Both the position numbers and the translations under genes were made by a program. Below are positions 23,515-45,292 of a stretch of 64,000 bases of DNA, piece by piece. Source of the DNA: an uncultured Oscillospiraceae bacterium (GTDB lineage: Bacteria > Bacillota > Clostridia > Oscillospirales > Oscillospiraceae); the NCBI GenBank assembly GCA_934589065.1, contig CAKTNN010000004.1, forward strand, positions 13,134 to 77,133, in the 5' to 3' direction. Every line of letters begins with the position of its first letter. The stretch's first letter is position 1. A model generated the notes under the pieces. It was not told where the DNA came from. It did no database searches and saw nothing but the letters and a program-made list of their open reading frames with translations.

Positions 23515-23545
23515 ATCCGCCCTTCAAAAGCGCGGACATTGCTGC

Positions 23546-23579
23546 AAAAAGGCACTTGCGAAAAGCAAGTGCCTTTTTT
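23546..23579. terminator. Bidirectional terminator after spoIIE
   Basis: AAAAAGGCACTTGC and GCAAGTGCCTTTTTT form a 14-bp stem with a short AAA-type loop. It also ends the ImmA/repressor transcript from the other side and marks the left edge of the phage-derived region. Confidence 0.9.
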
Positions 23580-23593
23580 GTGTATGTTGGCTT

Positions 23594-24025
23594 TTAAAAA
23601 TATAGGTCGGCAGCCAGATTGCCGTGGACGTAAAGGCAGACGGCCTTACGCATAAAGGGCTCGGTAACGCCAAAGTAGTCTGCCAGCTCCCACAGCTCGG
23701 TGTAGCCCTGGGCAATGGCATCGTCCAGCTCCTCTACGGGGATCAGCGCCCGGATGGCCCATTTGTCGGCCTGGTTTTCGTGACGCTGCCGGGAATCGAC
23801 GGTGGAATAAATGTTATAAAAGCTCCCTGTGATACAGTGGCCCAATTCGTGCCCCAGGTGCATCCGCTCCTGGGTGCCGTCATCCAGTACGCTCTGGTCA
23901 ATGCCAATGTAACAGGATCCGTCCGGCTCCATCAGGGACATGGAGCCGTTTGCCTTCATAGGATACCGGAGGACAGCAATATTCTGTTTGCGGGCCAGAT
24001 CATACAGTTCCGGTACCTGAGTCAT
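23594..24025 (-). CDS. ImmA/IrrE family metallopeptidase
   Basis: The 143-residue protein has HELGH at residues 59-63, the zinc-binding active site of the ImmA/IrrE family, with a downstream HENQADKWAIRALIP helix that supplies the third ligand. In ICEBs1 and related phages such a protein cuts the neighbouring XRE repressor and turns on the element. It starts three bases after the repressor stop, with AAAAGGAG upstream, so the two are made together. An anti-repressor role here is inferred from this arrangement. Confidence 0.92.
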   Translation of the reverse strand: MTQVPELYDLARKQNIAVLRYPMKANGSMSLMEPDGSCYIGIDQSVLDDGTQERMHLGHELGHCITGSFYNIYSTVDSRQRHENQADKWAIRALIPVEELDDAIAQGYTELWELADYFGVTEPFMRKAVCLYVHGNLAADLYF

Positions 24026-24027
24026 AG

Positions 24028-24390
24028 CTACTCCTTTTTTGCCTTCTGCTTCTTGGCCTCCCGCTGGCGCACAAAGGCGGCGAAGCTGAGCACTTCATCA
24101 TACATGGCATCGGTAATATCTCCGCTGCCGCCGAAAAGGGCAAACTTGATGTCTTCCTGGCTGGGGCGGATGTGCGCCTCGCTTTCTCCCTCCTCCGTAT
24201 AGCCCAAGAGCTCAGACACGCTGATGCCGAAGTAGCGGCAGAGCTTATCGATGACATTGCCGGAGGGCTTGGTTTCCGGATCCTTTTTCCACTTGGTGAC
24301 GGTGGATTTGCTGAGGCCTGCGTCGATGGCGGCTTTGGAGGTGCTGACGCCCTTTTGCTTGCACAGCTGGACAAAGCGTTCGTAGAACAT
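24028..24390 (-). CDS. XRE-family repressor of the phage cluster
   Basis: The 120-residue protein has an N-terminal helix-turn-helix (residues about 5-60; KAAIDAGLSKSTVTKWKKD is the core) and a C-terminal tail rich in Lys and Glu, with no peptidase domain of its own. It would bind the palindromes in the adjacent control region and silence the particle genes. ATG 24390 is used, with AAAGGGTG upstream; a TTG eighteen bases earlier is less likely. It is co-transcribed with the ImmA gene. Confidence 0.9.
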   Translation of the reverse strand: MFYERFVQLCKQKGVSTSKAAIDAGLSKSTVTKWKKDPETKPSGNVIDKLCRYFGISVSELLGYTEEGESEAHIRPSQEDIKFALFGGSGDITDAMYDEVLSFAAFVRQREAKKQKAKKE

Positions 24391-24422
24391 ACAGGGACAC
24401 CCTTTCAAAAAATAATGAAAAA

Positions 24423-24484
24423 TTTCAACTCAACAGACTTGACAAGTACGAAAGAGTGTACTATAATGCAGATGTGAGTTGAAA
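24423..24484 (+). promoter_or_regulatory. Rightward promoter with nested operator palindromes
   Basis: A consensus promoter, TTGACA (24439-24444), 17 bases, TATAAT (24462-24467), has an AGTAC-N8-GTACT palindrome filling its spacer (24445-24462). It is bracketed by a longer inverted pair TTTCAACTCA (24423-24432) and TGAGTTGAAA (24475-24484). A similar half-site pair (TTTTCAACT with CGTACTT) recurs in reverse near 24570-24597. Repressor binding here would block transcription of the particle genes. The remaining bases to 24693 hold no gene that I can support. Confidence 0.8.
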
Positions 24485-24693
24485 AGCGTAAACTGATGGA
24501 TGGGACAGAAAACCGTGTGTGGGAGAATCTGCCCGGAATCCATATCCACCTATATACTAACATATATGTTTTCGATTTTCAACTGTCTGACGTACTTTTT
24601 TTCTGAAAATTAACTGCTTATAGAATAGGGAGGGATGTGTCCAATAAATGGGACGGATAAGAAAAATAGCTGTTTCAAAGACGGAGAGACGAA

Positions 24694-24888
24694 GTGAGGT
24701 GCTATGTGGACAAAGCATGGATGGAGGACCAGCGAATTCAGAAAAAATGGGATGACTACCTAAGGCGGCGTCCGGTGTGCTGCCTGTGCGGAGCCCCAAT
24801 TCTCACGGTATATGCATTGAAACTGGTATCACAGTGGTATTGTGAGGACTGTGTCAGCCGCTACACCCAGGAGGTCGAGGAGTCGTGA
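24694..24888 (+). CDS. Small phage protein with a possible zinc-binding CxC...CxxC
   Basis: The 64-residue protein has VCCLCGAPI (Cys 29, 30, 32) and YCEDC (Cys 50, 53), which could bind zinc; the N-terminal half is charged and helical. It starts with GTG, supported by GGAG seven bases upstream, and its stop overlaps the terminase small subunit start. Small HNH-like or zinc proteins often lie just before terminases, but no HNH motif is present. Function unknown. Confidence 0.65.
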   Translation: MRCYVDKAWMEDQRIQKKWDDYLRRRPVCCLCGAPILTVYALKLVSQWYCEDCVSRYTQEVEES

Positions 24889-25427
24889 CGCCGGATTGGA
24901 ATGCCCTGCGGCGGGCCTATAGCCGGGGCGCTTCCATTGGGGAGCTGGCAAAAAAGTGGAGCGTGCCGGAATCCACCCTCCGGGGCAGGGCAAAGCGGGA
25001 GGGCTGGAAACGACCCTCCCAAAAAAAGAAGCAAAAAATTGTTCAAAAAGACGAACAAGATCAAAAGCGCATGGACCGGGTGGATGAACTGGCGGACAGT
25101 ATGCTTGCCTGTTTGGAGCGGGCGGTGGGGGAGCTGGATGCGGTAACCCGTACCGTTCGGGAAAAGGTGAAAAAAGAGGACGGAGATGTGACCACCGATT
25201 TTTCCCAGGTGATGCCCGGAGAAAAGGGACTCATCGACCGGGGCGGACTAAAGCAGCTGACCGGTGTACTGAAGGATTTGAAGGAGGTTTTGTCCCTGCG
25301 TGACCAGGGAGACATTCTGGAGCAGGAGGCACGGATTGCCCGGATTCAGCGGGAGCTGAACAAAGAGGAGCAGGAGGAACGGATCGTGGTAACCATGGAA
25401 GGAGCGTGTGAGAACTATGCCGACTAA
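24885..25427 (+). CDS. Phage terminase small subunit
   Basis: The 180-residue protein has an N-terminal helix-turn-helix (WNALRRAYSRGASIGELAKK then VPESTLRGRAKREGW) typical of TerS DNA-binding domains, a Lys-rich linker and a C-terminal oligomerisation coiled coil (GDILEQEARIARIQRELNKE). TerS selects the packaging site and stimulates the motor. It starts with GTG overlapping the preceding stop, with AGGAGG upstream, and overlaps TerL by eleven bases. Confidence 0.87.
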   Translation: MTPDWNALRRAYSRGASIGELAKKWSVPESTLRGRAKREGWKRPSQKKKQKIVQKDEQDQKRMDRVDELADSMLACLERAVGELDAVTRTVREKVKKEDGDVTTDFSQVMPGEKGLIDRGGLKQLTGVLKDLKEVLSLRDQGDILEQEARIARIQRELNKEEQEERIVVTMEGACENYAD

Positions 25428-26922
25428 GGTGCTTACCATGCCGGCCCCCAATGAAAAGCAGGCCCTTGCCCTGGCGGAAACCCACCGCTATGTGGGTTAC
25501 GGCGGGGCCCGGGGCGGAGGGAAAAGCTGGTTTGTCCGGTGGAAGGCGGTGCTGCTGTGCCTGCGCTATCCGGGGATTAAGGTGCTTATCACCAGAAAGA
25601 CCTACAAAGAGCTCTGGAACAACCACATTGCCCCCCTGCAGCAGCTGCTTGCCGGGGTGGCGGAATACAAGAGCATGGACAAGCTCTTCCGGTTTCCCGG
25701 CGGCAGCACCATTAATTTTGGCTATTGCGCCTGCGATGGAGATCTGGGTCAGTATCAGGGCGCGGAGTACGATGTGTGGTTTGCCGATGAGGCCGGGCAG
25801 TTCCGGGAGGAATGGCTGGTGCAGATCGATGCCTGCGTCCGGGGCGTCAACGGTTTTCCCAAGCGCACCTATTACACCCTGAATCCCGGCGGGCCGGGGC
25901 ATGGCTACTTTAAGCGGGTGTTTATTGACAAACGGTATACGGAAGACGAGCACCCGGAGGACTACGCCTTTATCCAGGCACTGTGCACGGATAACCTCGC
26001 CCTGATGCAGAGCCAGCCGGGATACCTGCGGAGCCTGGAAAAGCTGCCCTACAAGCTGCGGCAGGCCTGGCTCTACGGGCGGTGGGATGTGTATGAGGGG
26101 CAGTTTTTCGAGGAATTCACCGATGACCCCAGCCACTATGCCGACCGGCGCTATACCCATGTGATTGACCCCTTTGAAATCCCTGCCGGTTGGAAACTCT
26201 ACCGCAGCTTTGACTGGGGCTATCACCGCCCCTTCTCCTGCGGCTGGTGGGCGGTGGACTATGACGGGGTTGCCTACCGGATTCTGGAGCTCTACGGCTG
26301 CACCGGAGAACCCAACGAGGGGGTACGGTGGACGCCGGATCAGGTGTTTTCCAAAATCCGCAGCATTGAGCGGGAGCACCGCTATCTGGCGGGCAGGAAA
26401 ATTGTGGGGGTGGCAGACCCGGCAATCTGGGATGCGGAAACCGGCGAGAGCATTGCCGGGTCTGCCGCCCGGCACCAGGTGTATTTTACGCCGGGGGACA
26501 ACAAACGCCTTCCCGGCTGGATGCAGCTGCACTACCGGCTGAGCTTTGACGGGCAGGGATATCCGCTGCTGTACGTATTTCGCAACTGCAAGGCCTTTAT
26601 CCGCACTCTGCCGCTGCTGCAATACGATGCCACCAACGCGGAGGACTTGGATACCGACGGAGAGGATCACGCGGCAGACGAGGCCAGATACTTCTGTATG
26701 TCCCGGCCCATCGGGCCCAGAGCTCCGGAAAAGCCGCGAAAAAAAGGAAATGCAGAGCTGTTTTTGGATATTGACGAGACGATGCCGGTCTGTCGCAGAC
26801 CGGGAATGGAGATTATCAGTGAAAAAGATGGATGTGATCGGGGAAGCACAGCTGCGCCAGGCCAGGGCAACCCTGAACCGCTACCGGGAGGGCAAGGCCA
26901 ACCTGGAACGGCGGGTGATTGA
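25417..26922 (+). CDS. Phage terminase large subunit
   Basis: The 501-residue packaging motor has an ATPase domain with Walker A GGARGGGKS (residues 29-37) and Walker B VWFADEAG (D124, E125). The nuclease domain has acidic residues in SFDWGY, VADPAIWD and GEDHAADEARYF. ATG 25417 fits the AAGGAG at 25399-25404 better than an upstream GTG. The last 35 codons overlap the portal gene by 104 bases in another frame; that tail (rich in Gly, Pro and Gln) is unlike a structured domain. An intact motor is predicted. Confidence 0.93.
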   Translation: MPTKVLTMPAPNEKQALALAETHRYVGYGGARGGGKSWFVRWKAVLLCLRYPGIKVLITRKTYKELWNNHIAPLQQLLAGVAEYKSMDKLFRFPGGSTINFGYCACDGDLGQYQGAEYDVWFADEAGQFREEWLVQIDACVRGVNGFPKRTYYTLNPGGPGHGYFKRVFIDKRYTEDEHPEDYAFIQALCTDNLALMQSQPGYLRSLEKLPYKLRQAWLYGRWDVYEGQFFEEFTDDPSHYADRRYTHVIDPFEIPAGWKLYRSFDWGYHRPFSCGWWAVDYDGVAYRILELYGCTGEPNEGVRWTPDQVFSKIRSIEREHRYLAGRKIVGVADPAIWDAETGESIAGSAARHQVYFTPGDNKRLPGWMQLHYRLSFDGQGYPLLYVFRNCKAFIRTLPLLQYDATNAEDLDTDGEDHAADEARYFCMSRPIGPRAPEKPRKKGNAELFLDIDETMPVCRRPGMEIISEKDGCDRGSTAAPGQGNPEPLPGGQGQPGTAGD

Positions 26923-28525
26923 AAATGAGCAATGGTACCGGATGCGGCACTGGGAGTGTATGCGCCGGGGCACCGGCAGCCAGGTGGAGCCCACCTCCGG
27001 GTGGCTGTTCAACGCCATTGCCAATAAGCACGCCGAGGCAATGGACAATTATCCCGTGCCTACGGTGCTGCCCAGAGAGGAGAGCGACCGGGAAAAGGCC
27101 AAGGCCTTGGAGAGCATTCTGCCGGTGATTTTCCAGCAGGAGGAATTTGAAGAAACCTACGACCGGGTGATGGATGACAAGCTCAAGGCCGGTACGGGCA
27201 TTTATGGGGTGTTCTGGGATCCGGAAAAGCTGGATGGCTTGGGAGATGTGAGCATACAGCGCATTGACCTATTAAACCTATTCTGGGAAAACGGCGTGAC
27301 GGATTTGGAGCAATCCAGAAATGTGTTCTATCTGCGGCTGTGGGATAACGATTTGCTTTTGGAGCGCTACCCCATGCTGGAGGGAAAGCTTTCCGGAGCT
27401 GCCGAGGCGGGGAACCGCTATGTGTACGAAGACCGGGTGGATACCACCGATAAGTCGGCGGTAATCGACTGGTACTACAAAAAGCAGGTTAACGGCAGGC
27501 AGGTTTTGCACTACTGCAAGTTTGTGGGGGATACGGTGCTGTTTGCCACGGAAAATGAGCCGGAATATGCCCGGCGGGGGTGGTATGACCATGGACGGTA
27601 TCCCTTTGTGATGGATGTGATGTTCCGCTGCGCCGGTTCGCCCTGCGGCTTTGGCTACATCGATGTGGCGAAATCCGCCCAGGAGTATGTGGACCGGGGG
27701 AACCAGGCCATTTTGCAGAATCTGCTTGCCAACGCCCGCCCCCGGCACTTTATCCGCACCGATGGAGCGGTGAACGAGGGGGAATACGCGGACATGACCC
27801 GGGACTTTGTCCATGTGGACGGAAACCTGGGAGAGGACAGCATCAAGCCCATCAGCGGCAAGCCCCTGAGTGATATCTATGTGACCGTTATCGGCAACAA
27901 GATCGATGAGCTCAAGGAGGTAACGGGCACGCGGGATGTGTCCACCGGCGGTACGGTATCCGGCGTTACGGCGGCCTCCGCCATTGCTGCCATGCAGGAG
28001 GCTGGCGGCAAATTGAGCCGGGACAGCAATATGGCATCCTACCGGGCATTCCGGAAGGTGTGCCTGCTGGTGATCGAACTCATCCGGCAATTTTATGAGC
28101 TGCCCAGGGCCTTCCGGATTCTGGGGGAGCAGGGCAGCATGGATTTTATCAGTTTCAGTAACGAATGCCTCAAGCCCCGGAGCCAGGGGGTGGAGCTGGG
28201 GGTGGACATGGGAGTGCATACACCCTTATTCGATGTGGAGGTAGGCGCGGAAAAACAGAGCCCCTACTCCCGGCTGAGCCAGAATGAGCTGGCAATGCAG
28301 TTTTATTCCGCAGGCTTTTTTGACCCCGCCCGATGGGAGGAGGCTCTGGCGGCCCTGGACATGATGGAATTTAACGGAAAGGCTGCCGTTGTCCGGCACA
28401 TCCGGGAAAACGGCACTGCCTTCCGCGCCATGCAGGCCCAGGCACAGCAGGAGCTTCCCCGGCTGGAGAATCGGGACCATTTTCGCGAAAGAGCAGCGGC
28501 GGCAGAGGCTGCCGCACCGGTATAA
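26819..28525 (+). CDS. Phage portal protein
   Basis: The 568-residue protein matches portal proteins of short-tailed phages. It has an N-terminal charged helix, WLFNAIANKHAEAMDNYPVP, a central clip/stem region, and RDVSTGGTVSGVTAASAIAAMQE, a Gly/Ala-rich segment typical of this group. It forms the dodecameric ring through which DNA enters. GTG 26819 is chosen because GGAG lies seven to ten bases upstream; an ATG three codons later is the alternative. It overlaps TerL by 104 bases, unusually long, so one of the two ends may have shifted during evolution. Confidence 0.88.
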   Translation: MKKMDVIGEAQLRQARATLNRYREGKANLERRVIENEQWYRMRHWECMRRGTGSQVEPTSGWLFNAIANKHAEAMDNYPVPTVLPREESDREKAKALESILPVIFQQEEFEETYDRVMDDKLKAGTGIYGVFWDPEKLDGLGDVSIQRIDLLNLFWENGVTDLEQSRNVFYLRLWDNDLLLERYPMLEGKLSGAAEAGNRYVYEDRVDTTDKSAVIDWYYKKQVNGRQVLHYCKFVGDTVLFATENEPEYARRGWYDHGRYPFVMDVMFRCAGSPCGFGYIDVAKSAQEYVDRGNQAILQNLLANARPRHFIRTDGAVNEGEYADMTRDFVHVDGNLGEDSIKPISGKPLSDIYVTVIGNKIDELKEVTGTRDVSTGGTVSGVTAASAIAAMQEAGGKLSRDSNMASYRAFRKVCLLVIELIRQFYELPRAFRILGEQGSMDFISFSNECLKPRSQGVELGVDMGVHTPLFDVEVGAEKQSPYSRLSQNELAMQFYSAGFFDPARWEEALAALDMMEFNGKAAVVRHIRENGTAFRAMQAQAQQELPRLENRDHFRERAAAAEAAAPV

Positions 28526-28542
28526 GGAATAGGAGGATAAGC

Positions 28543-28890
28543 ATGATTCACGTGAAATTCTTTCGGAACACGCAGGAGGGCTCCGTGCAGATGGAAATGC
28601 AGGGCCACGCCCTCACTGCCCCCAAGGGGGAAGACCTGGTGTGCGCGGCGGCAACCACCGTTGCCTATACCCTGGCCCAGGCCGTGCAATTTTTATATGA
28701 GCAGGACAGGCTCCTGGAAAAGCCGGTGATGCAGCTGGTGGATGGCTACGCCCACATTCTGGTTTATCCCAGAAAATGTGCAGTGGCGGAAACCCTGATG
28801 ACCTTTTGGGTGGCCCAGGCCGGAGCGTATGTTCTGGAGCGGAACTATCCCCAGGCGGTAAGCCTGATGGCGATGGAGGCATCCGCATGA
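28543..28890 (+). CDS. Phage-encoded Prp-like cysteine protease
   Basis: The 115-residue protein matches the Prp (DUF464) family. GHALTAPKGEDLVCAAATTV holds H22 and C34, the same positions as the catalytic pair in Staphylococcus aureus Prp. Bacterial Prp removes the N-terminal extension of ribosomal protein L27 at an LQFFA-type motif. This copy lies between portal and scaffold, and the next two proteins, scaffold and capsid, begin with LQLFA motifs. It is therefore most likely the head-maturation protease, borrowed from the host. It is slightly longer at the C-terminus than cellular Prp. Its stop overlaps the scaffold start. Confidence 0.85.
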   Translation: MIHVKFFRNTQEGSVQMEMQGHALTAPKGEDLVCAAATTVAYTLAQAVQFLYEQDRLLEKPVMQLVDGYAHILVYPRKCAVAETLMTFWVAQAGAYVLERNYPQAVSLMAMEASA

Positions 28891-29639
28891 AAAACTTTGT
28901 CAACTGCCGGGATTTGCAGCTGTTTGCACAGGAGTCTGCAGCCCCGGAGTCGGGCGTAACCGAGGCCGACGCCCAGCCTCAGACCGAACCCTCCGAAGCG
29001 TCCCCGGAGGAATTCGAGAAACTGATTCAGGGACCCTACAAACAGGCCTACGATGCCAGAGTGCAGAACATCGTGCAGCAGCGGCTGAAAAACTCCAAGG
29101 AAGCCCTGGAAAAATTCCAGGCTCTGGAGCCCATTGCAGCGATGCTTTCCCAGCACTATGGAGTCGCAGAGGGAGACTACAGTGCCCTGGAAAATACCCT
29201 CCGCAGGGAATTTGCCCCGCCGGATCCTGCCGAGCAGCAGCGGCAGCAGACGGAAATTCAGGCAGGTGCTGCGCGGATGGTAGAGCAGTGGAATGCCCGG
29301 GCCGGAGAAATCCGGGAAACCTATCCCGCCTTTGATTTGCGGCAGGAAATGGAAAATCCTCAATTTGTCAGCTTGCTGCGCAGCCGCGTGGATATGCAGA
29401 CAGCCTACGAGATCCTCCACAAGGACGAGATCATTCCGGCTGCCATGGCTTATGCAGCCAAAACCGTGGAGCGGAAGCTGTCAGAAAATCTCCGTTCCTC
29501 CGGCACCCGTCCCTCGGAAAACGGTACTGTGAGCACCGGCGCGGCAACCCTCGGCAGCCGCGTGGAACAAATGAGCCGAAAGGAAATCGCCGACCTGTGC
29601 CGGCGGGTGGAAAGAGGGGAGAAAATCCGGCTTGGATAA
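28887..29639 (+). CDS. Phage scaffold protein with Prp-type N-terminal site
   Basis: The 250-residue protein is highly charged and helical with Gln/Glu-rich stretches (EEFEKLIQGPYKQAYDARVQ), as in scaffold proteins placed just before the capsid gene. Its N-terminus is MKNFVNCRDLQLFAQESAAP, which contains an L27-like Prp cleavage motif DLQLFA at residues 9-14. The C-terminus (MSRKEIADLCRRVERGEKI) is basic and likely binds the capsid protein. ATG 28887 overlaps the Prp stop. Confidence 0.85.
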   Translation: MKNFVNCRDLQLFAQESAAPESGVTEADAQPQTEPSEASPEEFEKLIQGPYKQAYDARVQNIVQQRLKNSKEALEKFQALEPIAAMLSQHYGVAEGDYSALENTLRREFAPPDPAEQQRQQTEIQAGAARMVEQWNARAGEIRETYPAFDLRQEMENPQFVSLLRSRVDMQTAYEILHKDEIIPAAMAYAAKTVERKLSENLRSSGTRPSENGTVSTGAATLGSRVEQMSRKEIADLCRRVERGEKIRLG

Positions 29640-29682
29640 ACCGGAGAGAGAAAAGCCCCGGAAGAAAACGAGAGGAGAAACT

Positions 29683-30702
29683 ATGGAAATCAAAAATCTT
29701 CAGCTGTTTGCGGAGAATACCGCAGTGAATGTAACCACCGACAGCGGCCTGTCCGTGGAAAACAAGACCTTTTATGACCGGGCCCTGATTGAAGAGGCCA
29801 GCCCCAACCTGATTCACGGTCAGTTCGGGCAGAAGCGGCCCATTCCCAAGAATGGGGGCAAGCGGATTCAGTTCCGGCGCTATGCATCCCTGCCCAAGGC
29901 CCTGAAGCCCCTGACCGAGGGCGTTACCCCTGAGGGCCGGAAGCTCAGCGCCACCGCCATCGAGGCAGAGGTGAACCAGTACGGCGATTTTGTATGCCTG
30001 TCCGATGTGCTGGATCTGACCGCCATTGACAACAATGTCCTGGAAGCTACTAAGGCGGTGGGCCGTCAGGCGGGCATGACCCTGGATACCATTACCCGGA
30101 ATGTGCTTCAGTCCGGCACCAATGTGTTCTACTGCCCCAAGACCGCTGCCGACGGCAAGACGGTGGCTGTGACGGACCGGAAAAACCTGGACAAGACCTG
30201 CACCCTGACCGTGGATGTGGTCAAGAAGGTGGCGGCAATGCTGAAAGCCGCCAATGCTCCCAAGATTGCCGGAGACTATGTGTGCATCCTGCACCCTTAT
30301 GTGGCCTACGACATTATGTCCGATCCCCATTGGGAGGATATGCACAAGTACTGCAAGCCCGAGGAGATGTACGAGGGGGAAATCGGCAGAATCGCCGGTG
30401 TACGCTTTGTGGAAACCTCTGAGGCGGCGGTATACAAGGGCGCAGCGGATGAGTGCCCCGAGGGCCTGGCTGTGTTCGGCTGCCTGTTTATCGCCGATGG
30501 GGCCTACGGCGTGACCGAGGTCACCGGCGGCGGCCTGCAGACCATTGTTAAGCAGCTGGGCTCTGCCGGTACGGCTGACCCCCTGGATCAGCGGAGCACC
30601 GTGGGCTGGAAGGCCCTGCAGACGGCGGAAATCCTGATGGAGCCCTATATGGTGCGGGTGGAGTGCTGCTCTGCATTCTCCCCCACGGCAGAGGCAAACT
30701 AA
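29683..30702 (+). CDS. Major capsid protein, N4-gp56 family
   Basis: The 339-residue protein matches the N4-gp56 major capsid family (HK97 fold). It has KTFYDRALIEEASPNLIHGQ, GKRIQFRRYASLP and the conserved YVCILHPYVAYDIMSDPHW segment. Its N-terminus reads MEIKNLQLFAENTAV, containing NLQLFA, the Prp-type cleavage motif also in the scaffold. GAGGAG lies seven bases before the ATG, and a hairpin follows the stop codon, as expected for a highly expressed structural gene. Confidence 0.93.
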   Translation: MEIKNLQLFAENTAVNVTTDSGLSVENKTFYDRALIEEASPNLIHGQFGQKRPIPKNGGKRIQFRRYASLPKALKPLTEGVTPEGRKLSATAIEAEVNQYGDFVCLSDVLDLTAIDNNVLEATKAVGRQAGMTLDTITRNVLQSGTNVFYCPKTAADGKTVAVTDRKNLDKTCTLTVDVVKKVAAMLKAANAPKIAGDYVCILHPYVAYDIMSDPHWEDMHKYCKPEEMYEGEIGRIAGVRFVETSEAAVYKGAADECPEGLAVFGCLFIADGAYGVTEVTGGGLQTIVKQLGSAGTADPLDQRSTVGWKALQTAEILMEPYMVRVECCSAFSPTAEAN

Positions 30703-30734
30703 AGGAAATCCCTTGCTGAGAAGATAGAATCCGC

Positions 30735-30759
30735 CCCCGGGAGGAAGTCCCTCCCGGGG
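30735..30759 (+). other. Hairpin after the capsid gene
   Basis: CCCCGGGAGG pairs with CCTCCCGGGG across a five-base loop. No T-run follows, so it more likely protects the 3' end of a processed capsid message than terminates it. Confidence 0.5.
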
Positions 30760-30778
30760 AAAAGGAAAGGAGAACGAA

Positions 30779-31015
30779 ATGGAAAACGAGAAACTGGTAA
30801 CCATCCGCCTGCCCCTGACCCGGGAGGAGCGGGAAGACGTATTTGTGGGCATCAACGGCAAGACCTGGCTCATCAAGCGGGGGGAGCAGGTCAAAGTCCC
30901 CGCGCCCGTTGCCAATGTGCTGGCGCGAAAGGAAAAGTGTCTTGCCATGGCAATGGAGTTTGAAGCTCAGGCGGCCCGCCCCCTGGAACAGCTTATCGGG
31001 GAGGCGGCACGATGA
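30779..31015 (+). CDS. Small phage protein, unknown
   Basis: The 78-residue protein starts ENEKLVTIRLPLTREEREDV, then has a compact beta-rich part and a helical C-terminus. Proteins of this size and position directly follow N4-gp56 capsid genes in other clostridial prophages, but no function is assigned. AAAGGAG precedes the ATG. It overlaps the next gene by four bases. Confidence 0.75.
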   Translation: MENEKLVTIRLPLTREEREDVFVGINGKTWLIKRGEQVKVPAPVANVLARKEKCLAMAMEFEAQAARPLEQLIGEAAR

Positions 31016-31377
31016 CGGTGCGGGAGGCTCTGGAGCTGACAGACCGCCGCAGGCCAAATCTCTACAGCCGGGAGGAAAAGCTGCGCTGGCTATCGGAGGC
31101 AGAGGGAATGGTATGGGGTGCGCTGGAGGCCTTTCATGCGGTGCTGGGGCCCTTCCCCGGCCTGGAAAGCTCCGATTGGCCCAATAAGAAGCTGCTTCTG
31201 CCCCAGGCCTATACGGGACTGTACTTTTTGTGGCTGGAGGGCTCCATGTACTATGCGGATCAGGAGTATCTTTTGTACAACAACGCCATGACCCGGTTCA
31301 ATGCCCTGTGGCGGGATTTCTTCGCCTGGTGCTGCCGGACCATTCCCCAGCCTGCAAAGAGCATCCGCTATCTGTGA
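31012..31377 (+). CDS. Phage head-completion or adaptor candidate
   Basis: The 121-residue helical, aromatic-rich protein (GLYFLWLEGSMYYADQEYLL) lies between the capsid gene and the tail hub. This is where head-tail adaptor proteins normally occur, so that role is suggested from position only; I see no diagnostic motif. The ATG overlaps the preceding stop. Confidence 0.7.
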   Translation: MTVREALELTDRRRPNLYSREEKLRWLSEAEGMVWGALEAFHAVLGPFPGLESSDWPNKKLLLPQAYTGLYFLWLEGSMYYADQEYLLYNNAMTRFNALWRDFFAWCCRTIPQPAKSIRYL

Positions 31378-31390
31378 AAGGAGGGGCGCT

Positions 31391-33094
31391 ATGCAGCCTT
31401 ATCTGAATGTGCCCACCAGATACCGGCAGCAGACCAACCGCTTCGGCGGCCTGGACTGCAATGCTTCCATTCAGCAGGGGCAGTTTGCGGATATGGAGAA
31501 CCTCTGCTCCGATCAGTTCCCGGTGCTCTCCACCCGACCGGGCCGGAGTGAACCCCTGTTTCCGGGGCCCACCGGAGGGCTGCTTGCCGGAGACGGACTC
31601 ATCCGCGTGGAGGGCAGCGCTCTGGTGCTGCCGGACAGAAGGGTTGAGCTGGGGCTTTCGGAGGGAGAAAAAACGCTGACGGCTATGGGGGCTTACGTTT
31701 TGGTGTTTCCGGATAAAAAGTATGCCAGCCTGACGGAACCGGAAATTTACGGAGAGATGGAGGCGGAGTTTATCCCTACGGGCCCGGTGATCGCGACTCC
31801 CTGCACCCTGGACGGGGCAGACAGAAGACCGGACTATGTGCAGCCGGATGCCCCGGAAGAGCCGGAAAACCGGGCCCTGTGGCTGGATACCTCCGGGACT
31901 CCCTATTGCCTGAAGCAGTGGAATGCCTCCGGCTCTATCTGGGTGACGGAGGAGACTGCCTACCTGCGCCTGGAAAGCGCGGGCATCGGAAGAGAATTCC
32001 GGGCCTACGACGGCGTTACCCTTTCCGGAACGGAGGGCCTGGACGGGGCAAATACGGTATGGGCTCTGGGGGAGGACTACCTGGTGCTGACGGGGGTGCT
32101 GGAAGATACCGTAACCGTAGGGGATTCCCTGCGGGTAACAAGAACCGTACCGGATATGGACTATGTGACGGAGTGCGGCAACCGTCTGTGGGGATGCCGG
32201 GCCGGAAAAAATGCCCGGGGGGAGACGGTGAATGAAATCTATGCCTCCAAGCTGGGAGATTTCCGAAACTGGGAAAGCTTCCTGGGCCTGACCACGGACA
32301 GCTTTACCGTCAGCGTAGGTACGCCCGGCCCCTTTACCGGGGCAATCACCCATCTGGGCACGCCCCTGTTTTTCAAGGAGGACTGCCTGTATAAGATTTA
32401 CGGCAGCTATCCGGCAAACTTCCGGGTGCAGTGCACCCCCTGCCGGGGGGTCCAGGCCGGGTGCGGCAGAAGTCTTGCCATCGTGGGGGAAATGCTCTAC
32501 TACAAATCCCCCATGGGCGTGTGCGCCTTTGACGGGAGCTTGCCCCAGGAGATCGGGCAGAGCCTGGGCATGACCTCCTTCCGCAACGGCGTGGCAGCGG
32601 GCTTCGGCGGGAAATATTATCTGTCCATGGAAGATGCCGCCGGGGCGGATGCCATCTATGTTTACGATACCTACCGGGGCCTGTGGCACAAGGAAACGGG
32701 AATTAGGGCCCGGCAGCTGGTTTCTTGCCGGGAAAAACTCTACGGACTGGATGCGGCGGGGGCGGTACAGTGCCTCCGGGGGGCGGAATCCCCGGAAAAG
32801 GTGGCCTGGATGGCAAAAACCGGGCGGATCGACGGCTGGGAGCCGGAGCGCTATCTGACGGGAATCACCCTGCATATCGCGCTGGCGCCCTACGCCAAGG
32901 CGGAAATCCTGGTGCGCTATGACTCCCGAGGGCCCTGGGAGCAGGTGGGGGCAATCACCGGACGGGGAGAGCGGTTCCGCCTGCCCATCCGGCCCAGAAG
33001 ATGCAGTCACCTGGAGCTGATGCTCCGGGGAACGGGGCAGATGCAGCTTTATTCCCTGACGAGAATTTTGCAGAAGGGCAGGGATGGCCTATGA
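31391..33094 (+). CDS. Short-tail nozzle/knob-like structural protein
   Basis: The 567-residue protein is almost all beta-strand. It opens QPYLNVPTRYRQQTNRFGGL and has a repeated central pattern (CGNRLWGC, NEIYASKLGDFRNW, LGTPLFFKEDCLYKIYG, GVCAFDG) that looks like a beta-propeller. This arrangement resembles podovirus tail nozzle or accessory proteins such as P22 gp10; the similarity is by pattern, not by a search. AAAGGAGG precedes the ATG. It fits the absence of long-tail genes. Confidence 0.65.
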   Translation: MQPYLNVPTRYRQQTNRFGGLDCNASIQQGQFADMENLCSDQFPVLSTRPGRSEPLFPGPTGGLLAGDGLIRVEGSALVLPDRRVELGLSEGEKTLTAMGAYVLVFPDKKYASLTEPEIYGEMEAEFIPTGPVIATPCTLDGADRRPDYVQPDAPEEPENRALWLDTSGTPYCLKQWNASGSIWVTEETAYLRLESAGIGREFRAYDGVTLSGTEGLDGANTVWALGEDYLVLTGVLEDTVTVGDSLRVTRTVPDMDYVTECGNRLWGCRAGKNARGETVNEIYASKLGDFRNWESFLGLTTDSFTVSVGTPGPFTGAITHLGTPLFFKEDCLYKIYGSYPANFRVQCTPCRGVQAGCGRSLAIVGEMLYYKSPMGVCAFDGSLPQEIGQSLGMTSFRNGVAAGFGGKYYLSMEDAAGADAIYVYDTYRGLWHKETGIRARQLVSCREKLYGLDAAGAVQCLRGAESPEKVAWMAKTGRIDGWEPERYLTGITLHIALAPYAKAEILVRYDSRGPWEQVGAITGRGERFRLPIRPRRCSHLELMLRGTGQMQLYSLTRILQKGRDGL

Positions 33095-33597
33095 TCGAGC
33101 AGGAAATTTTGCGCCTGCCGGAAATTCCGGAGGGCACGCCGGAAACGCAGCTCCGGGCCATCCGGAGTTACCTGTATCGCCTGGCAGAGCAGCTGCAATA
33201 CCTCCTGTCCACGGAAAAGGAGGAGCGCCTGCGGGGGCAGGATGCCCTCTCCCAGGAGGCCTTTCGGGGAATCCAACAGAGATTTTTAGAGTCTCCCCAG
33301 ATTGCCCAGCAGCTGATGTGTCTGGCAAACCGCAATTTGGGGAACCGGTATGTGGATTCGGAGGTTATGGAGGCCTTCCTCCAGCGGATGCTGCCGGAAT
33401 TGCACCGGGCCGTATACGATCTGGCGCGGCTGGAAAAGGAAAAGCCGGCGGCGCAAAGCCCGAAAGCACAGCTGACGGTTGCCCCCAGCCCAGGGGCGGT
33501 GATCCGGGAGGGGGAACGGGTGATCTTTTCTCCCTTCCCCCAAGAAAAGACGGGGCCTTTGGAGCAGATCGCTCCCGGGCACTGGCAAATTCCCTAG
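33091..33597 (+). CDS. Phage protein, unknown, helical
   Basis: The 168-residue protein is predicted to be helical for its first 110 residues (Gln/Glu/Leu rich), followed by an extended Pro-rich region ending APGHWQIP. Its ATG overlaps the nozzle gene stop. No family is recognised. By position it is a tail or ejection component. Confidence 0.7.
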   Translation: MIEQEILRLPEIPEGTPETQLRAIRSYLYRLAEQLQYLLSTEKEERLRGQDALSQEAFRGIQQRFLESPQIAQQLMCLANRNLGNRYVDSEVMEAFLQRMLPELHRAVYDLARLEKEKPAAQSPKAQLTVAPSPGAVIREGERVIFSPFPQEKTGPLEQIAPGHWQIP

Positions 33598-33621
33598 GAA
33601 AACTCTGAGAAAGGAGAAGAT

Positions 33622-34254
33622 ATGGAGGAAAAAGAAAAGAAAACGCCCCTGTCCGACCTGGAAAAGGCCAAGCAGGAGGCACTGAGCAGCGATGCAAAAA
33701 AGCCGGGGGAATATACATCCAAGTGGCAGCAGCAACTGGATGCCGCCATGGATAAGATCCTGAATCGGGAGCGCTTTTCCTACGACCTCAATGGGGATGC
33801 CCTCTACCGCCAATACAAAGACCGGGCCGTGAAGAACGGTCGCCTGGCAATGATGGATACCATGGGGCAGGCTGCCGCCATGACCGGGGGCTACGGCAGC
33901 TCCTATGCCCAGTCTGCCGGTCAGCAGGCCTATCAGAAGCAGATGGATGGTCTGACCGACCAGGCTTCCCGGCTGTATGACAAGGCACGGGAGGACTATG
34001 ACCGGCAGGGGCAGGTGGATCGGGACCGGTACGATGTCCTCCGGCAGCGGGAAAACAGCAGCTACAACCAGTATAAGCAGCAGAGGTCGGACTGGGAGGC
34101 GGAGAATACCCGGCTGTGGAACCGGTACGACAGTCTGCGTCAGCAGGAATACAGCGCCCAGCGGGACAGCATCAAGGATCAGCAGTGGCTGGCGGAATTT
34201 GAGGAGGCCCGTCAGGAATTCTATGACCAGCTGATTCGGAAATACGGCGGTTAA
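33622..34254 (+). CDS. Phage coiled-coil structural protein
   Basis: The 210-residue protein is rich in Gln, Tyr, Asp and Arg and almost wholly helical. The segment AMMDTMGQAAAMTGGYGSSY, followed by AQSAGQQAY, recurs in other clostridial phage structural proteins as far as I recall. It may be an internal or ejection protein. AGAAAGGAG precedes the ATG. Confidence 0.72.
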   Translation: MEEKEKKTPLSDLEKAKQEALSSDAKKPGEYTSKWQQQLDAAMDKILNRERFSYDLNGDALYRQYKDRAVKNGRLAMMDTMGQAAAMTGGYGSSYAQSAGQQAYQKQMDGLTDQASRLYDKAREDYDRQGQVDRDRYDVLRQRENSSYNQYKQQRSDWEAENTRLWNRYDSLRQQEYSAQRDSIKDQQWLAEFEEARQEFYDQLIRKYGG

Positions 34255-34265
34255 GGGGAGAAAGC

Positions 34266-35567
34266 ATGATTTTTTCATACCTGCGCTACCCCATAACCTT
34301 ACAGGGGGATACCCTGGGCAGCCCCATTACCGTAACCCTTCCGGCAAAGGGCAAGAGCCTGACCCTGCGCATTCGCTGCGGAAGCCGGGAAGAGGTGGTG
34401 GAGGAAAACAACACCCAGGGAGAATTTCACTGGACGCCGCCCCTGAGCCTGGCCCAGGAGTATCCCCGGGATAACCGGATCCCGGTGACCCTGATTTTGG
34501 AGCAGTACCGGAAGGAAATCCGGGTTGCCTCCCGGCAGGAGCAGATCCTTCTGGCGCTGCCGGAGGAAATCCACCCCCAGGTGCTTTTGAGCTATACGGA
34601 TGCCCAGGGCTGCCGGCAAATCTACGGCGGTTTTGTCCAGGGAAAATCCCGGCTGGCGCTGACAGCCCAGGCCACGGGCAGCTTTGGGGCGGAAATCGGG
34701 GAAACGGAGCTGGAAAGCGGCGGCTTTGTTTGCCGGGGAAAATCCGCAACCTTTGATCTGCCCCAGGCGGGGGAAATTTCCCTGGCAGCCAGAGTATGGG
34801 ATGACCGGGGCCGCAGTGCCCAGGCTTCCGGGAAAATACAGGTGCTGCCTTACAGTCCGCCTACGGGGGAAATTACCGCCGTCACCCGGAAAGACGGCAC
34901 CCTGGTTTCTTTTCGGGGAAGGGTTACGGCTCTGGGCGGAAAGAATCAGGGAAGCTTTACGGTGCTAATGCAGCAGGAGGGCGGCGCCTGGCAGCGTTTC
35001 CCCGCAGCCCAGGGCTGGGAAGCGGAAGGGGAGGTGACCCTTCCGGCGCTGGAGGAAAGCTGGGCACTGGCCCTGGAAGTGAAGGATGATTTTGAAACGG
35101 TGGTAATTCCCTACCATAGAAGGCCCTTCCTGGATATGCTCCCGGAGAAGCGGGCCCTGGGCATTGGCTGCCGGGCGGAGACAGCCGGGAAAATTCTGCT
35201 GGGCCTGACCCTGGATGCCGGGGGAAACCCAATAGAAAATCTGGGAGCGCCCCAAAAGGACGGGGATGCCCTCACTCTGGGCTACGGAGAAAGAACCTAT
35301 TGGCATCCGCGCCTTTTGTGGGAAAATCCGGCGCCGGACAGTCCCTTTGCCTCCCAGACTCTGGACATAGCGGGAGATTTTCTGCTGATTGAGGCGGCGG
35401 TTGAGGCAGGAAAGCCGACTGCCTTTTGGGAGCTGGGAAAGGATACGGCCCTTTTGCGGGCGGCAGAAGGGGTGCACCGGACAGTAGAACGGACGGACAA
35501 GGGCCTGACGTTTGGAACCACAGCATCGGGGGACGGCTTTGCAGTGCCCCTGCGGATATACGGATAA
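34266..35567 (+). CDS. Tail-fibre or receptor-binding protein, DUF859-like
   Basis: The 433-residue protein is beta-rich with immunoglobulin-like repeats, and a late FLDMLPEKRALGIGC motif of the kind found in DUF859-type minor structural proteins of Gram-positive phages. It ends in a compact domain (TDKGLTFGTTASGDGFAVP). Such proteins recognise the host surface. GGGGAGAAAGC precedes the ATG. It is the last large structural gene before the lysis-type genes. Confidence 0.7.
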   Translation: MIFSYLRYPITLQGDTLGSPITVTLPAKGKSLTLRIRCGSREEVVEENNTQGEFHWTPPLSLAQEYPRDNRIPVTLILEQYRKEIRVASRQEQILLALPEEIHPQVLLSYTDAQGCRQIYGGFVQGKSRLALTAQATGSFGAEIGETELESGGFVCRGKSATFDLPQAGEISLAARVWDDRGRSAQASGKIQVLPYSPPTGEITAVTRKDGTLVSFRGRVTALGGKNQGSFTVLMQQEGGAWQRFPAAQGWEAEGEVTLPALEESWALALEVKDDFETVVIPYHRRPFLDMLPEKRALGIGCRAETAGKILLGLTLDAGGNPIENLGAPQKDGDALTLGYGERTYWHPRLLWENPAPDSPFASQTLDIAGDFLLIEAAVEAGKPTAFWELGKDTALLRAAEGVHRTVERTDKGLTFGTTASGDGFAVPLRIYG

Positions 35568-35586
35568 CGGGGAGAAATCAAAAGAA

Positions 35587-35847
35587 ATGGATGCAAGCGT
35601 GTTGGCATCCCTGATTACGGGGCTTTTGTCTCTTGCCGGGGTGATGTTCAGCAATTTGTGGTCGGACAGACGGCGGCAGAGCGCTCTGCGCACGGCCCAG
35701 GCGGTGACGGATACCCGCCTGGAGGAATTAACCCGGGAGGTGCGGCAGCACAACAATTTTGCACGGAGAATGCCGGTGGTGGAGGAGCAAATCAAGGTCA
35801 TCAACCACCGGCTGGAGGATTTGGAAACGGGAGGAAAGAATCCATGA
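35587..35847 (+). CDS. Holin-associated small membrane protein (XhlA-like)
   Basis: The 86-residue protein has an N-terminal hydrophobic helix (SVLASLITGLLSLAGVMFS) and a coiled coil (RLEELTREVRQHNNFARRMP then VVEEQIKVINHRLEDLE). Proteins with the HNNFA..P.VEE pattern lie next to phage holins in many Firmicutes. It overlaps the holin gene by four bases. GGGGAG lies upstream. Confidence 0.8.
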   Translation: MDASVLASLITGLLSLAGVMFSNLWSDRRRQSALRTAQAVTDTRLEELTREVRQHNNFARRMPVVEEQIKVINHRLEDLETGGKNP

Positions 35848-36098
35848 TCAATTGGAAGGTTCGTCTGAAAAACGTGAATTTCTGGCTGACTGCCATTCCG
35901 GCGCTGCTGCTGGTGGTGCAGGCCGTGGGCACGCTGGTGGGCTGGCAGCCGGAGCTGGCAGGACTCCAGGAAAAGCTGTTAAACCTGGTAAACGCGGTGT
36001 TTGGTCTGCTGGCAATCCTGGGCATTGTCAATGACCCCACCACCGCCGGCCTGCACGACAGTACCCGCGCCATGGGCTACGAAAAGCCAAAGGGATAA
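35844..36098 (+). CDS. Phage holin, phi-LC3 family
   Basis: The 84-residue protein begins INWKVRLKNVNFWLTAIPAL, the start of the phi-LC3 holin family, has two membrane helices separated by a short polar loop, and ends in DPTTAGLHDSTRAMGYEKPK, also typical. Holins make membrane holes that release a muralytic enzyme, but no endolysin gene follows; a terminator and a host gene come next. Confidence 0.92.
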   Translation: MINWKVRLKNVNFWLTAIPALLLVVQAVGTLVGWQPELAGLQEKLLNLVNAVFGLLAILGIVNDPTTAGLHDSTRAMGYEKPKG

Positions 36099-36115
36099 AA
36101 AGGAATAAAATAAAA

Positions 36116-36176
36116 GGGAGCGTTAAAATCCTCGGCTGTCAACGCAGCAAAGGCCTTTTGACGCTCCCAATTTTTC
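36116..36176. terminator. Long hairpin terminator at the right edge of the phage cluster
   Basis: GGGAGCGTTAAAA pairs with TTTTGACGCTCCC with one mismatch around a 26-base loop; a T-run follows. It closes the particle operon and, read from the other side, the LysR gene. Confidence 0.75.
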
Positions 36177-36182
36177 TGGGCC

Positions 36183-37175
36183 TCAGCCAATCTGGGTGTG
36201 CTGAATGTAGGTGTCGAAAACATGGTGCTCTGTGTAGACCTGCTGGATGATCCGAATTGCGTCCTGCAGCGGTCGGGTAAGCTGCTTCTGCTTGTGGTAG
36301 ACCAGGGAGGTCTGCCGTGCACCCTGATATTCCAGAACCGGGAAAACATTCAGATTTTGAAAATAATTGCGCTGACTTTCAAACATAAATTTCAGGAGCA
36401 TGGAGGGACTGAAGAAAATGCCGTAGCCCTTGGCACATAAATCCACCAGGGAACTGGTCAGAGAGGTTTTTACGCGGATAAAGGGCGTGATGCCGTGGGC
36501 CTTGATGGCATTTTGTATTTCCAGATGAAAGGCGCTGTCAGAGGGGTGGAGAAACAGAGGCAGATGAGCAAAGGTGTAAAGGGATACCCCGGAACGGAAC
36601 TGTTCCTTGCAGGCGGGGTACTGATCCGGAAGCGTCTGACGCAGAAGAGTATCGGAAATAACCAGGTAAAGGGTTTCGGCTTCCAGCAGCTGCACTTCCA
36701 GAATGTTGGTATCCAGGCGGGCTGTGGTGTTGGATACCAGGGGCAGCGCCAGATCAATCCGATTCCGAATCAGTTCGCCGGAAAGATTGTGGGAGTACTC
36801 TTCCTGCAAATTGATGGACATATTGGGGTACATGGAAGAAAATCTCGGAATGAATTCATTGGCAAAGGCGGTGGAGCGGTTTGCGGGCAGACCGATGGAA
36901 AGCTCTCCGGTATAGCTGTTTCTGGAGTTTTGCAGGGCGTCGGTCAAGACCTGCTCTCTTTGAATGATTTCCTGAGCGGCTTCCAATAGGATATGTCCTG
37001 CCTGGGTCAGTTTCAGCGCAGGCTTGCGCTCAAAGAGCACCGCATTGTAGGTTTGCTCCAAATGCTTAATATGCAGACTGACGGCCTGCTGGGAAATATA
37101 GAGGGATTCCGAAGCCTTGGAAAAGCTGCCGCAGGAGACAACTTCCAGAAAACAGTTGATATCCGACATGTTCAC
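36183..37175 (-). CDS. LysR-family regulator of the catabolic operon
   Basis: The protein of about 330 residues has an N-terminal winged helix-turn-helix (INCFLEVVSCGSFSKASESL then ISQQAVSLHIKHLEQ) and a periplasmic-binding-like effector domain. LysR proteins are usually activators that sense a pathway intermediate and control a divergent operon; here the divergent operon is the carboxylate cluster at 37349. Three starts are possible: GTG 37184, GTG 37175 and ATG 37169. AAGGAG at 37187-37192 fits GTG 37175 best (11 bases). Confidence 0.9.
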   Translation of the reverse strand: MNMSDINCFLEVVSCGSFSKASESLYISQQAVSLHIKHLEQTYNAVLFERKPALKLTQAGHILLEAAQEIIQREQVLTDALQNSRNSYTGELSIGLPANRSTAFANEFIPRFSSMYPNMSINLQEEYSHNLSGELIRNRIDLALPLVSNTTARLDTNILEVQLLEAETLYLVISDTLLRQTLPDQYPACKEQFRSGVSLYTFAHLPLFLHPSDSAFHLEIQNAIKAHGITPFIRVKTSLTSSLVDLCAKGYGIFFSPSMLLKFMFESQRNYFQNLNVFPVLEYQGARQTSLVYHKQKQLTRPLQDAIRIIQQVYTEHHVFDTYIQHTQIG

Positions 37176-37219
37176 AAAAATCACATCTCCTTCTTGGTAA
37201 ATATGCTGTTGCAGAACCT

Positions 37220-37248
37220 ATTATACAAGTATTTGCTTGAAGAATCAA
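37220..37248 (-). promoter_or_regulatory. Promoter of the LysR gene
   Basis: On the minus strand TTGATT (37243-37248), 17 bases, TATAAT (37220-37225). It faces the operon promoter region, as expected for LysR autoregulation. Confidence 0.65.
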
Positions 37249-37258
37249 CAAATAAAAT

Positions 37259-37287
37259 CATGCTTTTCTTTTGTAACCATGTATAAT
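37259..37287 (+). promoter_or_regulatory. Activator-dependent-looking promoter of the catabolic operon
   Basis: TATAAT (37282-37287) has no good -35 box at 17 bases (CATGCT), the usual form of a promoter that needs LysR for activity. The AT-rich 37190-37260 region would hold the LysR sites; I could not mark an exact T-N11-A site. Confidence 0.45.
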
Positions 37288-37348
37288 ATAATCAATATCA
37301 GAAGATGTACTTAGGAAATTTGTGCAAATAAACCAGGAGGTAATTAGA

Positions 37349-38218
37349 ATGGTGATTGGTTTCGTTGGGTTCGGAGAAGCGAACTCTTCCATTGCCCAGG
37401 GGCTGCGTGAAGAGGGCGCACAGGAGCTTGTCTGTTACGATGCCATGCAGGCAGATCCCCGGTTCCGGGAAAAGATTGCCCAAAAGGCAGCGTCCTGCGG
37501 AGCAAAACAGCTGGAGAGCGGAGCAGAGGTTTGCCGGAAAGCGGATATTGTCATCTCCGGGACACCCTCCTCTTTTGCTTTGGGCGCGGCAGAGCAGGCA
37601 AGTGCCGGGGCACATCCGGGACTGATTTACATCGATGTGTCCACTGCAACGCCCAAGGATAAAAAGCGGATGGCACAGCTGCTGGATGGCAAGGGGGCAG
37701 CCTTTGTAGACGGCGCAATGATGGGGACGCTCCTGAAGGATCGGCACCGGGTGCCGATGCTGCTGTGCGGCAGCGGCGCGGAGAATTTTAAACGGGCGAT
37801 GGAGCCGTACAATATGCGCTTGACGGTTGTGCAGGGGGAGCCGGGGACGGCGACCAGCATCAAGTTTATCCGCAGTATTACCGCCAAGGGCCTGAGCTGC
37901 CTGCTGATTGAATCCTTCCAGGCAGCCAAGAAGTTCGGCGTTGTGGACACCATTCAGGAATCCTTTCTGGATTCCTTCGGCCCGGGCTTTCAGAAAATCA
38001 TGGATGGGTATATTTCCGGCGCGGTGCTTCATGCCAACCGTCGGGAGCATGAAATGCAGAACGTTGTGGATTTCCTTAAGAGCGAGGGCTTGCCCTGCAA
38101 TATGGCGGATGCAACCCGGGAGAAGCTCAAATGGATTGACGACAATCGCGTGAAAGACCTGTTTCCCGATGGCGTGCCCAGAGATTTTCGGAAGGTTCTG
38201 GATGGCTGGGATGTGTAA
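37349..38218 (+). CDS. NAD(P)-dependent dehydrogenase, DUF1932 C-terminal
   Basis: The 289-residue protein has an N-terminal Rossmann fold with VIGFVGFGEANSSIAQGL and the 6-phosphogluconate/3-hydroxyisobutyrate dehydrogenase-like core (IYIDVSTATP, FVDGAMMG). The C-terminal all-helical part matches DUF1932. A lysine in SIKFIRSITAKG is in the catalytic position of this superfamily. It should oxidise a hydroxy acid to a keto acid or the reverse. AGGAGG is upstream. It is the first gene of the LysR-linked operon. Confidence 0.87.
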   Translation: MVIGFVGFGEANSSIAQGLREEGAQELVCYDAMQADPRFREKIAQKAASCGAKQLESGAEVCRKADIVISGTPSSFALGAAEQASAGAHPGLIYIDVSTATPKDKKRMAQLLDGKGAAFVDGAMMGTLLKDRHRVPMLLCGSGAENFKRAMEPYNMRLTVVQGEPGTATSIKFIRSITAKGLSCLLIESFQAAKKFGVVDTIQESFLDSFGPGFQKIMDGYISGAVLHANRREHEMQNVVDFLKSEGLPCNMADATREKLKWIDDNRVKDLFPDGVPRDFRKVLDGWDV

Positions 38219-38231
38219 GGAGGGATAAACG

Positions 38232-38738: not shown

Positions 38739-38748
38739 GGACAAGACG

Positions 38749-39612: not shown

Positions 39613-39624
39613 GGAGGTAAGGCG

Positions 39625-40518: not shown

Positions 40519-40522
40519 ATCT

Positions 40523-41257: not shown

Positions 41258-41311
41258 CTGCCGGAAGCGTTTGACAACGGCATAAACTGAAAAAGAAAGA
41301 AGGAAACAAAA

Positions 41312-42352: not shown

Positions 42353-42357
42353 GGATA

Positions 42358-42384: not shown

Positions 42385-42473
42385 GGCCCAAAGGCGCGAG
42401 GGAATATCTGTGGATGCCGCGGCGATTCCCTTGTGCCTGTGGGCAGAAACAACACGATATGAGAGGTGCAAAA

Positions 42474-45291: not shown

Positions 45292-45292
45292 T

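Follow-up and report, generated by a model that had tools for sequence, protein, structure and literature searches.

A switch-controlled cluster of short-tailed phage particle genes in an uncultured Oscillospiraceae bacterium is a candidate domesticated prophage

What is a set of phage particle genes for, if no genes for integration or replication accompany it? We asked this of a gene cluster in a 64-kb stretch of DNA from an uncultured Oscillospiraceae bacterium (contig CAKTNN010000004.1 of assembly GCA_934589065.1; "the window" means this whole stretch). The cluster spans positions 23594-36098 of the window (12.5 kb) and has 17 genes, two on the minus strand and then 15 on the plus strand (Table 1). 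An initial annotation of this DNA had described a repressor/ImmA switch and a promoter ahead of genes for terminase, portal, protease, scaffold, capsid, short tail, and holin. Matches to Pfam and phrog profiles, which we used to call gene families, confirm this, and the proposed coordinates were nearly right (the final gene stops at 36098 instead of 36176). The annotation had offered three explanations: a gene-transfer agent (GTA), a satellite, or a domesticated prophage. The last fits best. We think it probable that the cluster is a domesticated prophage, that is, a vertically inherited locus that is maintained by selection and makes short-tailed particles under the control of an XRE/ImmA switch. 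Its particles would resemble those of either a GTA or PBSX, the particle-forming element of Bacillus subtilis.

Divergence and selection

A scan of a genome collection with the portal protein found five loci. One of these (L001), in the Oscillospiraceae metagenome-assembled genome (MAG) RGIG8669 (hereafter G001), has all 17 genes, with 60-96% protein identity. We compared the window to G001 with the Nei-Gojobori method, using the 17 cluster genes and 13 flanking host genes. For the pooled cluster genes, nonsynonymous divergence (dN) is 0.109, synonymous divergence (dS) is 0.719, and their ratio (omega) is 0.151. For the pooled flanking genes, the values are 0.111, 0.710, and 0.156. Rank tests of the per-gene values, cluster versus flanks, give p = 0.65 for dS and p = 0.054 for omega. 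(Both the pooled values and the rank tests include the gene for a 64-amino-acid protein, whose dS is saturated.) Because the cluster's dS is the same as that of its flanks, it has not been replaced recently.

All 17 reading frames are open in both species. In a neutral simulation (0.33 substitutions per site in one lineage, 200 runs, indels uncounted), an average of just 0.7 of the 17 genes remained free of stop codons, and the maximum was 3. The most constrained genes include those for the capsid, ImmA, the portal, Prp, and TerL, and the least constrained are those for the DUF859 protein and a 168-amino-acid protein. Across the two species compared, the cluster shows long vertical retention under purifying selection, and both of these are features of GTAs. 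The initial annotation had argued that the large genes are intact and that the structural genes are being kept for use; it suggested comparing synonymous and nonsynonymous changes in each gene and looking for stop codons in sister strains. Both comparisons bear it out: no stop codons were seen in G001, and omega resembles that of host genes even at a dS of about 0.7.

Could the cluster be a decaying prophage remnant that is intact by chance, or through recombination with active relatives? Related full phages do exist, and genes for replication, integrase, and lysin are missing from the cluster. But 17 open frames, with dS and omega that match the flanks, are not explained by a recent or decaying prophage or satellite, and the equal dS speaks against recent replacement through recombination with active relatives. 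So we consider a remnant improbable. We rejected a satellite for the same divergence and because no integrase or replication gene was found in the cluster or among the 33 flanking genes scanned.

Gene content and the switch

The promoter/operator block is near-identical between the window and G001, while most of the intergenic DNA around it differs. Together with the identical leader block downstream and the constraint on the genes, this implies retention of the switch as well as of the particle genes. The repressor has an alternative start, a TTG at 24408, upstream of the ATG. That upstream extension contains a stop codon in another of the five loci (L002), and the repressor gene itself is open in the comparison of L001 and L002.

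Table 1. Features of the cluster, in window coordinates
Feature	Position	Strand	Evidence or comment
ImmA-type metallopeptidase, 143 aa	23594..24025	-	PF06114 (E 4e-8), phrog_87 (E 1e-25)
XRE/C1-type repressor, 120 aa from ATG	24028..24390	-	PF13443 (HTH_26; E 2e-12)
Consensus promoter, TTGACA-17-TATAAT at 24439-24467, inside inverted repeat TTTCAACTCA / TGAGTTGAAA	24423..24485	+	Sequence; the repeat is a likely operator
Leader block, 36 bp	24613..24648	+	Identical in G001
Small protein, 64 aa, two CxxC pairs	24694..24888	+	Sequence; 62% identity in G001
Small terminase subunit (TerS), with N-terminal putative DNA-binding region	24885..25427	+	phrog_1206 (E 2e-8, residues 2-58)
Large terminase subunit (TerL)	25411..26922	+	phrog_2 (E 8e-37)
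P22-like portal protein	26828..28525	+	PF16510 (E 3e-28); first ATG; 26819 is an alternative start
Prp-type cysteine protease	28543..28890	+	PF04327 (E 7e-14)
Scaffold-position protein, N-terminal LQLFA	28887..29639	+	phrog_13908 (unknown function; E 4e-57); between Prp and capsid
Major capsid protein, N-terminal LQLFA	29683..30702	+	phrog_1357 (E 4e-86)
Small conserved protein, 78 aa, head position	30779..31015	+	phrog_15239 (E 1e-11)
Head-completion-position protein, 121 aa	31012..31377	+	phrog_12105 (E 2e-21); role suggested by gene order
Predicted tail nozzle/hub	31391..33094	+	Predicted structure matches podovirus nozzles; phrog_511
Fast-evolving protein, 168 aa, tail or ejection role guessed	33091..33597	+	omega 0.33
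Conserved protein, 210 aa, ejection-type role guessed	33622..34254	+	Kept across clusters; without a family match
DUF859/tail protein, probable receptor-binding part	34266..35567	+	PF05895 (E 2e-12), phrog_372
phrog_1863 protein, 86 aa	35587..35847	+	Profile match
Holin	35844..36098	+	PF04531 (E 2e-25)

The arrangement is more than chance, as the order of these genes recurs in other genomes. The predicted structure of the putative nozzle (mean pLDDT of 84) has podovirus tail nozzles as its best matches in the PDB, including P22 gp10 and T7 gp12. The N-terminal region of TerS also has a weak match to HTH_psq (E = 0.005), below the Pfam cut-off. In phage 80alpha, Prp is reported to cleave both the capsid and the scaffold between F and A of a common N-terminal sequence (PMC5744158). 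As LQLFA opens both the capsid and the scaffold-position protein here, capsid maturation is probably the task of the cluster's own Prp.

How might the locus work? A signal acting via ImmA would lift the repressor off the operator around the promoter at 24439. A single late operon would then produce TerS and TerL, the portal, a P22-like tail, and the scaffold and capsid, which Prp would process. The heads would be filled by TerL. Since no replication or integration module was found, the packaged DNA would most likely come from the host, and the putative DNA-binding region of TerS might bias which DNA is taken. The particles would be released by the holin and a lysin encoded elsewhere.

Pfam searches of the 17 cluster genes and of 33 of the 47 called flanking genes found no integrase, replication protein, or lysin, as the initial annotation had claimed for the cluster. 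Between 23501-23620 and 36086-36320, there are no exact direct or inverted repeats of at least 8 bases. An integrase with attachment sites just outside the cluster, which the annotation had given as a possible refutation, is thus not seen among the genes scanned, and we rejected this candidate. Of what makes up a complete temperate prophage (an integrase with its attachment sites, replication genes, and lysis genes), just the switch and the holin were found; of the integrase and replication module of a phage-inducible chromosomal island or other capsid-forming satellite, neither was. Particle genes of prophage type, accompanied by neither integrase nor replication genes, are what is expected of a GTA. 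As for the lysin, none was seen in the window, in G001, or in two related loci (L107 and L118), and an M15-type lysin with a peptidoglycan-binding domain is present in the related clusters of G098 and G121.

Related loci

We then asked whether the cluster lies at the same site in G001. To its right is a MocR/P-type ATPase block, which is found 10 kb further right in the window, so the window carries an extra block at 36183-46237. (This block of about 10 kb, which is absent from that place in G001, encodes LysR, a fumarase-like protein, DUF6282, PIG-L, a TAXI/TRAP transporter, an RraA-like protein, and a permease.) To its left, the G001 cluster contig begins in a repeat, and the contig with spoIIE (C10) ends in the same repeat, with 117 identical bases in common. 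There are 26 matches to the repeat in G001, and the identical 117 bases also occur at a third contig end (C35). Apart from the spoIIE end, the hairpin there is found at the immA end and nowhere else, and a different hairpin is common to C35 and C39. From this exclusive hairpin we infer a spoIIE-repeat-immA join. So the G001 cluster very probably adjoins spoIIE as well (the join is strongly indicated but not proven). The repeat itself (window 60880-61200; G001 C10, C42, C35, and C39) is flanked on both sides by the terminator hairpin of the neighboring gene, and the copies seen, including the one near 60.9-61.2 kb in the window, all sit between two such hairpins. This is the pattern that a multi-copy repeat would leave if it inserted at terminators, duplicating them. 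L002 and L001 are 98% identical, but the spoIIE in its MAG is just 42% identical to the window's, so L002 is probably a misbinned contig from the species of G001 or a close one.

Within the genus of G001, we examined at least one locus in each of the 25 genomes that have a relative of the capsid (several of these loci are short). In 7 of them, a compact cluster adjoins host genes: G001, G098, G121, G074, G103, G002, and G116 (with host genes visible on one side only in G121 and G116). Contigs that look like phages, encoding a giant protein and, mostly, early-type genes, are found in G088, G015, G125, G096, G117, G034, G122, G097, G039, and G126 (contig C4), and at a second locus of G098. G019 has a partial set, and the other contigs are too short or unclear to classify. 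In G098 and G121, the cluster adjoins the same asd-lysC-hom-thrC block, with dS of 0.40-0.53 for TerL, portal, and capsid, 0.39-0.47 for the host block, and 0.30-1.57 for the other cluster genes. The two clusters are at opposite ends of the block, which requires either a rearrangement or a second event.

Several other neighborhoods are similar. G103 (C113, 33639-36064) and the window (15154-17576) have two host genes in common, located no more than about 13 kb from the cluster, perhaps a trace of a shared ancestral neighborhood. In G002 (C12, 166-7275), a compact cluster is downstream of truB-ribF-like genes, and in G116 (C52, 14939-17782), it is just ahead of rpsO-pnp. The truB-ribF and rpsO-pnp genes are usually adjacent, which hints at a shared site.

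Because related compact clusters occupy several chromosomal sites, we considered a phage or satellite that still moves, either with functions supplied in trans or with an integrase lost from the assembly. In L118, the end of an xis and int pair (1686-4283) and the immA end of the cluster are a few hundred bases apart. We take this pair to be Tn916-type, the end of an integrative and conjugative element; int is convergent with immA and preceded by xis, and we rejected it as the cluster's own integrase. No tyrosine or serine recombinase is present on the cluster contigs of G001, G098, G121, G074, G103, or G002, the six in this search. Given also the co-divergence with host genes and the lack of terminal repeats, a mobile element seems very improbable.

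Across the order, the portal profile matches 60 of 394 sampled genomes. Among 20 regions examined, seven appear to be compact clusters flanked by host genes on each side (G303a, G180, G493, G450, G497, G387 C14, and G339, the last with a stop codon in the portal gene). The others are phage-like, damaged, scattered, or unclear. The cluster adjoins khpA-rpsP-ffh-ylxM in both G180 and G303, and G450 and G497 have one neighbor in common. A scattered version of the cluster is found in two genomes, L182 (G222:C2) and L183 (G264:C18): TerL and portal are open but are split by host genes, in both cases including a 1041-amino-acid tRNA-synthetase-like gene and a 318-amino-acid gene.

The genus of G450 stands out, with the capsid gene in 30 of its 31 genomes. 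In all seven single-contig genomes examined there and in G387, the cluster includes TerS, TerL, portal, a Prp-scaffold fusion, capsid, and five more genes, and it adjoins the same host genes on one side. (In L191 and L229-L235, the scaffold gene starts with the Prp-like domain; in G573, the fusion is called as two genes.) Identity to the window's proteins is 49-53% for capsid, 42-43% for TerL, and 47-49% for portal. Queries for a second operon with tail or lysis genes found none in the 400 kb around the G572 cluster. The lone strong match (38% over 1,182 amino acids, to the giant protein of G126 C4) neighbors a relaxase-like gene and appears to belong to a mobile element. We had considered shorter proteins as a general pattern of compact clusters, and dropped this because these clusters deviate. 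By its layout, this lineage is probably FpGTA I of Faecalibacterium, which was described in January 2026 as the first podovirus-like GTA-like element (Nat Commun; PMC12946183).

In a tree of TerL, portal, and capsid from 47 loci, the window, G001, L107, L118, G098, and G121 form one clade (support of 0.98), all compact over the sequence available. The next relatives are the phage-type loci G088, G015, and L117 and, with weak support, an unclassified fragment (L123). The G450-genus clusters group in a clade of their own, with G387 C8 as a neighbor and surrounded by other loci, of which many are phage-like; this implies a separate reduction. (Some of the "compact" labels in the tree are tentative, such as that of G499, which has two integrases about 10-17 kb upstream.)

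Weighing the evidence, and comparison with known systems

The domesticated prophage is also supported by the clade of compact clusters, by the G098 and G121 pair beside one host block, and by the near-ubiquity of the clusters in the G450 genus. Several points weigh against it. First, no lysin was found in the cluster or among the 33 flanking genes scanned. Second, just one relative has this site, and there the contig join crosses a multi-copy repeat. The next-closest genome by spoIIE (G087, 53% identity) has a 2243-amino-acid frame after spoIIE and no capsid match, and just 25 of the 136 genomes in G001's genus have a capsid relative. (Absence from all close relatives, another refutation that had been proposed, holds for G087 but not for G001.) Third, two signatures of GTAs are missing. 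TerS of RcGTA is described as lacking the N-terminal DNA-binding domain (PMC6854486), and the window's TerS keeps the corresponding putative region, which is missing in G098, G121, G074, G002, and the G450 genus. GTA proteins are reported to be carbon-poor relative to those of phage relatives (PMC7360931), but here we found 4.985 carbons per residue versus 4.982 in phage relatives (6 vs. 8 loci, p = 0.57). In the G450 genus, carbon per residue is below that of phage relatives (10 vs. 6, p = 0.00025). Both carbon comparisons are uncorrected for GC content and relatedness.

If the locus is domesticated, its particles would serve the bacterium, perhaps for gene exchange. Few GTA clusters have been described outside of the Alphaproteobacteria, and the first podovirus-like one is FpGTA (PMC12946183). 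A conserved, switch-controlled cluster in Oscillospiraceae, apparently from the same phage family, is a concrete candidate for another. We suggest, tentatively, that gut Oscillospirales have domesticated one podovirus family several times independently, yielding vertically inherited DNA-packaging loci. The window would then represent a second podovirus-type GTA lineage, separate from FpGTA and at an intermediate stage: it still has a prophage switch, and its TerS may bind DNA specifically, in which case packaging may be site-biased rather than random. Because relatives have been reduced to different degrees, phage domestication could be tested step by step within one family. A title-level search of the open-access literature found no publication that describes the window's cluster.

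The full phages (G088, G015, G125, G096, and the 41.5-kb L114) have the same order of late genes, and their proteins are homologous, with capsids 63-78% identical. Unlike the window's cluster, they have early-type genes and, after the position of the 210-amino-acid protein, a giant protein (about 1,200 to 3,700 amino acids on the available sequence). The L114 record also has an integrase.

PBSX differs from the window's cluster in its longer tail module and in encoding a lysin. Both have an XRE/ImmA-type switch before the particle operon, no integrase, and a fixed place in the chromosome (see also PMC12946183). Given this shared plan and the fast evolution of the tail proteins, the domesticated locus might make particles that kill related strains instead of ferrying DNA; the authors of FpGTA keep this possibility for their element too (PMC12946183). 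We judge it rather unlikely, as some of the strongest constraint is on the terminase, portal, and capsid (omega of 0.06-0.09), which fits a packaging role, and as the particles of FpGTA, which is probably homologous, contain DNA.

Like RcGTA-type elements, the domesticated prophage proposed here would be a compact, vertically inherited head-tail cluster without integrase or replication genes. It differs in being short-tailed, in having its own repressor switch, in keeping the N-terminal region of TerS, and in showing no saving of carbon.

FpGTA is the closest comparison. Its particles (FpGTA I) are reported to hold about 9 kb of DNA, and it packages host DNA; the same report found GTA-like packaging in Oscillospiraceae in 3 of 25 events, and one of four MAGs searched, from Faecalibacterium, gave a strong candidate cluster (PMC12946183). 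Like FpGTA I and II as published, the window's cluster is of the short-tailed type, with the order TerS-TerL-portal-scaffold-capsid and no replication genes. Homology of the core genes is seen via the G450-genus clusters as a proxy, which fall in a different clade of the tree than the window; FpGTA itself was compared by its published layout. FpGTA has two separate operons, with lysis and fiber genes apart, and a short TerS, and the proxy has a Prp-scaffold fusion. In contrast, the window has a single locus with a switch, a separate Prp, a TerS with the N-terminal putative DNA-binding region, and the DUF859 tail gene and the holin gene adjoining the core. If the proxy is indeed FpGTA, as is probable, then the phage family behind the window's cluster also gave rise to this published element.

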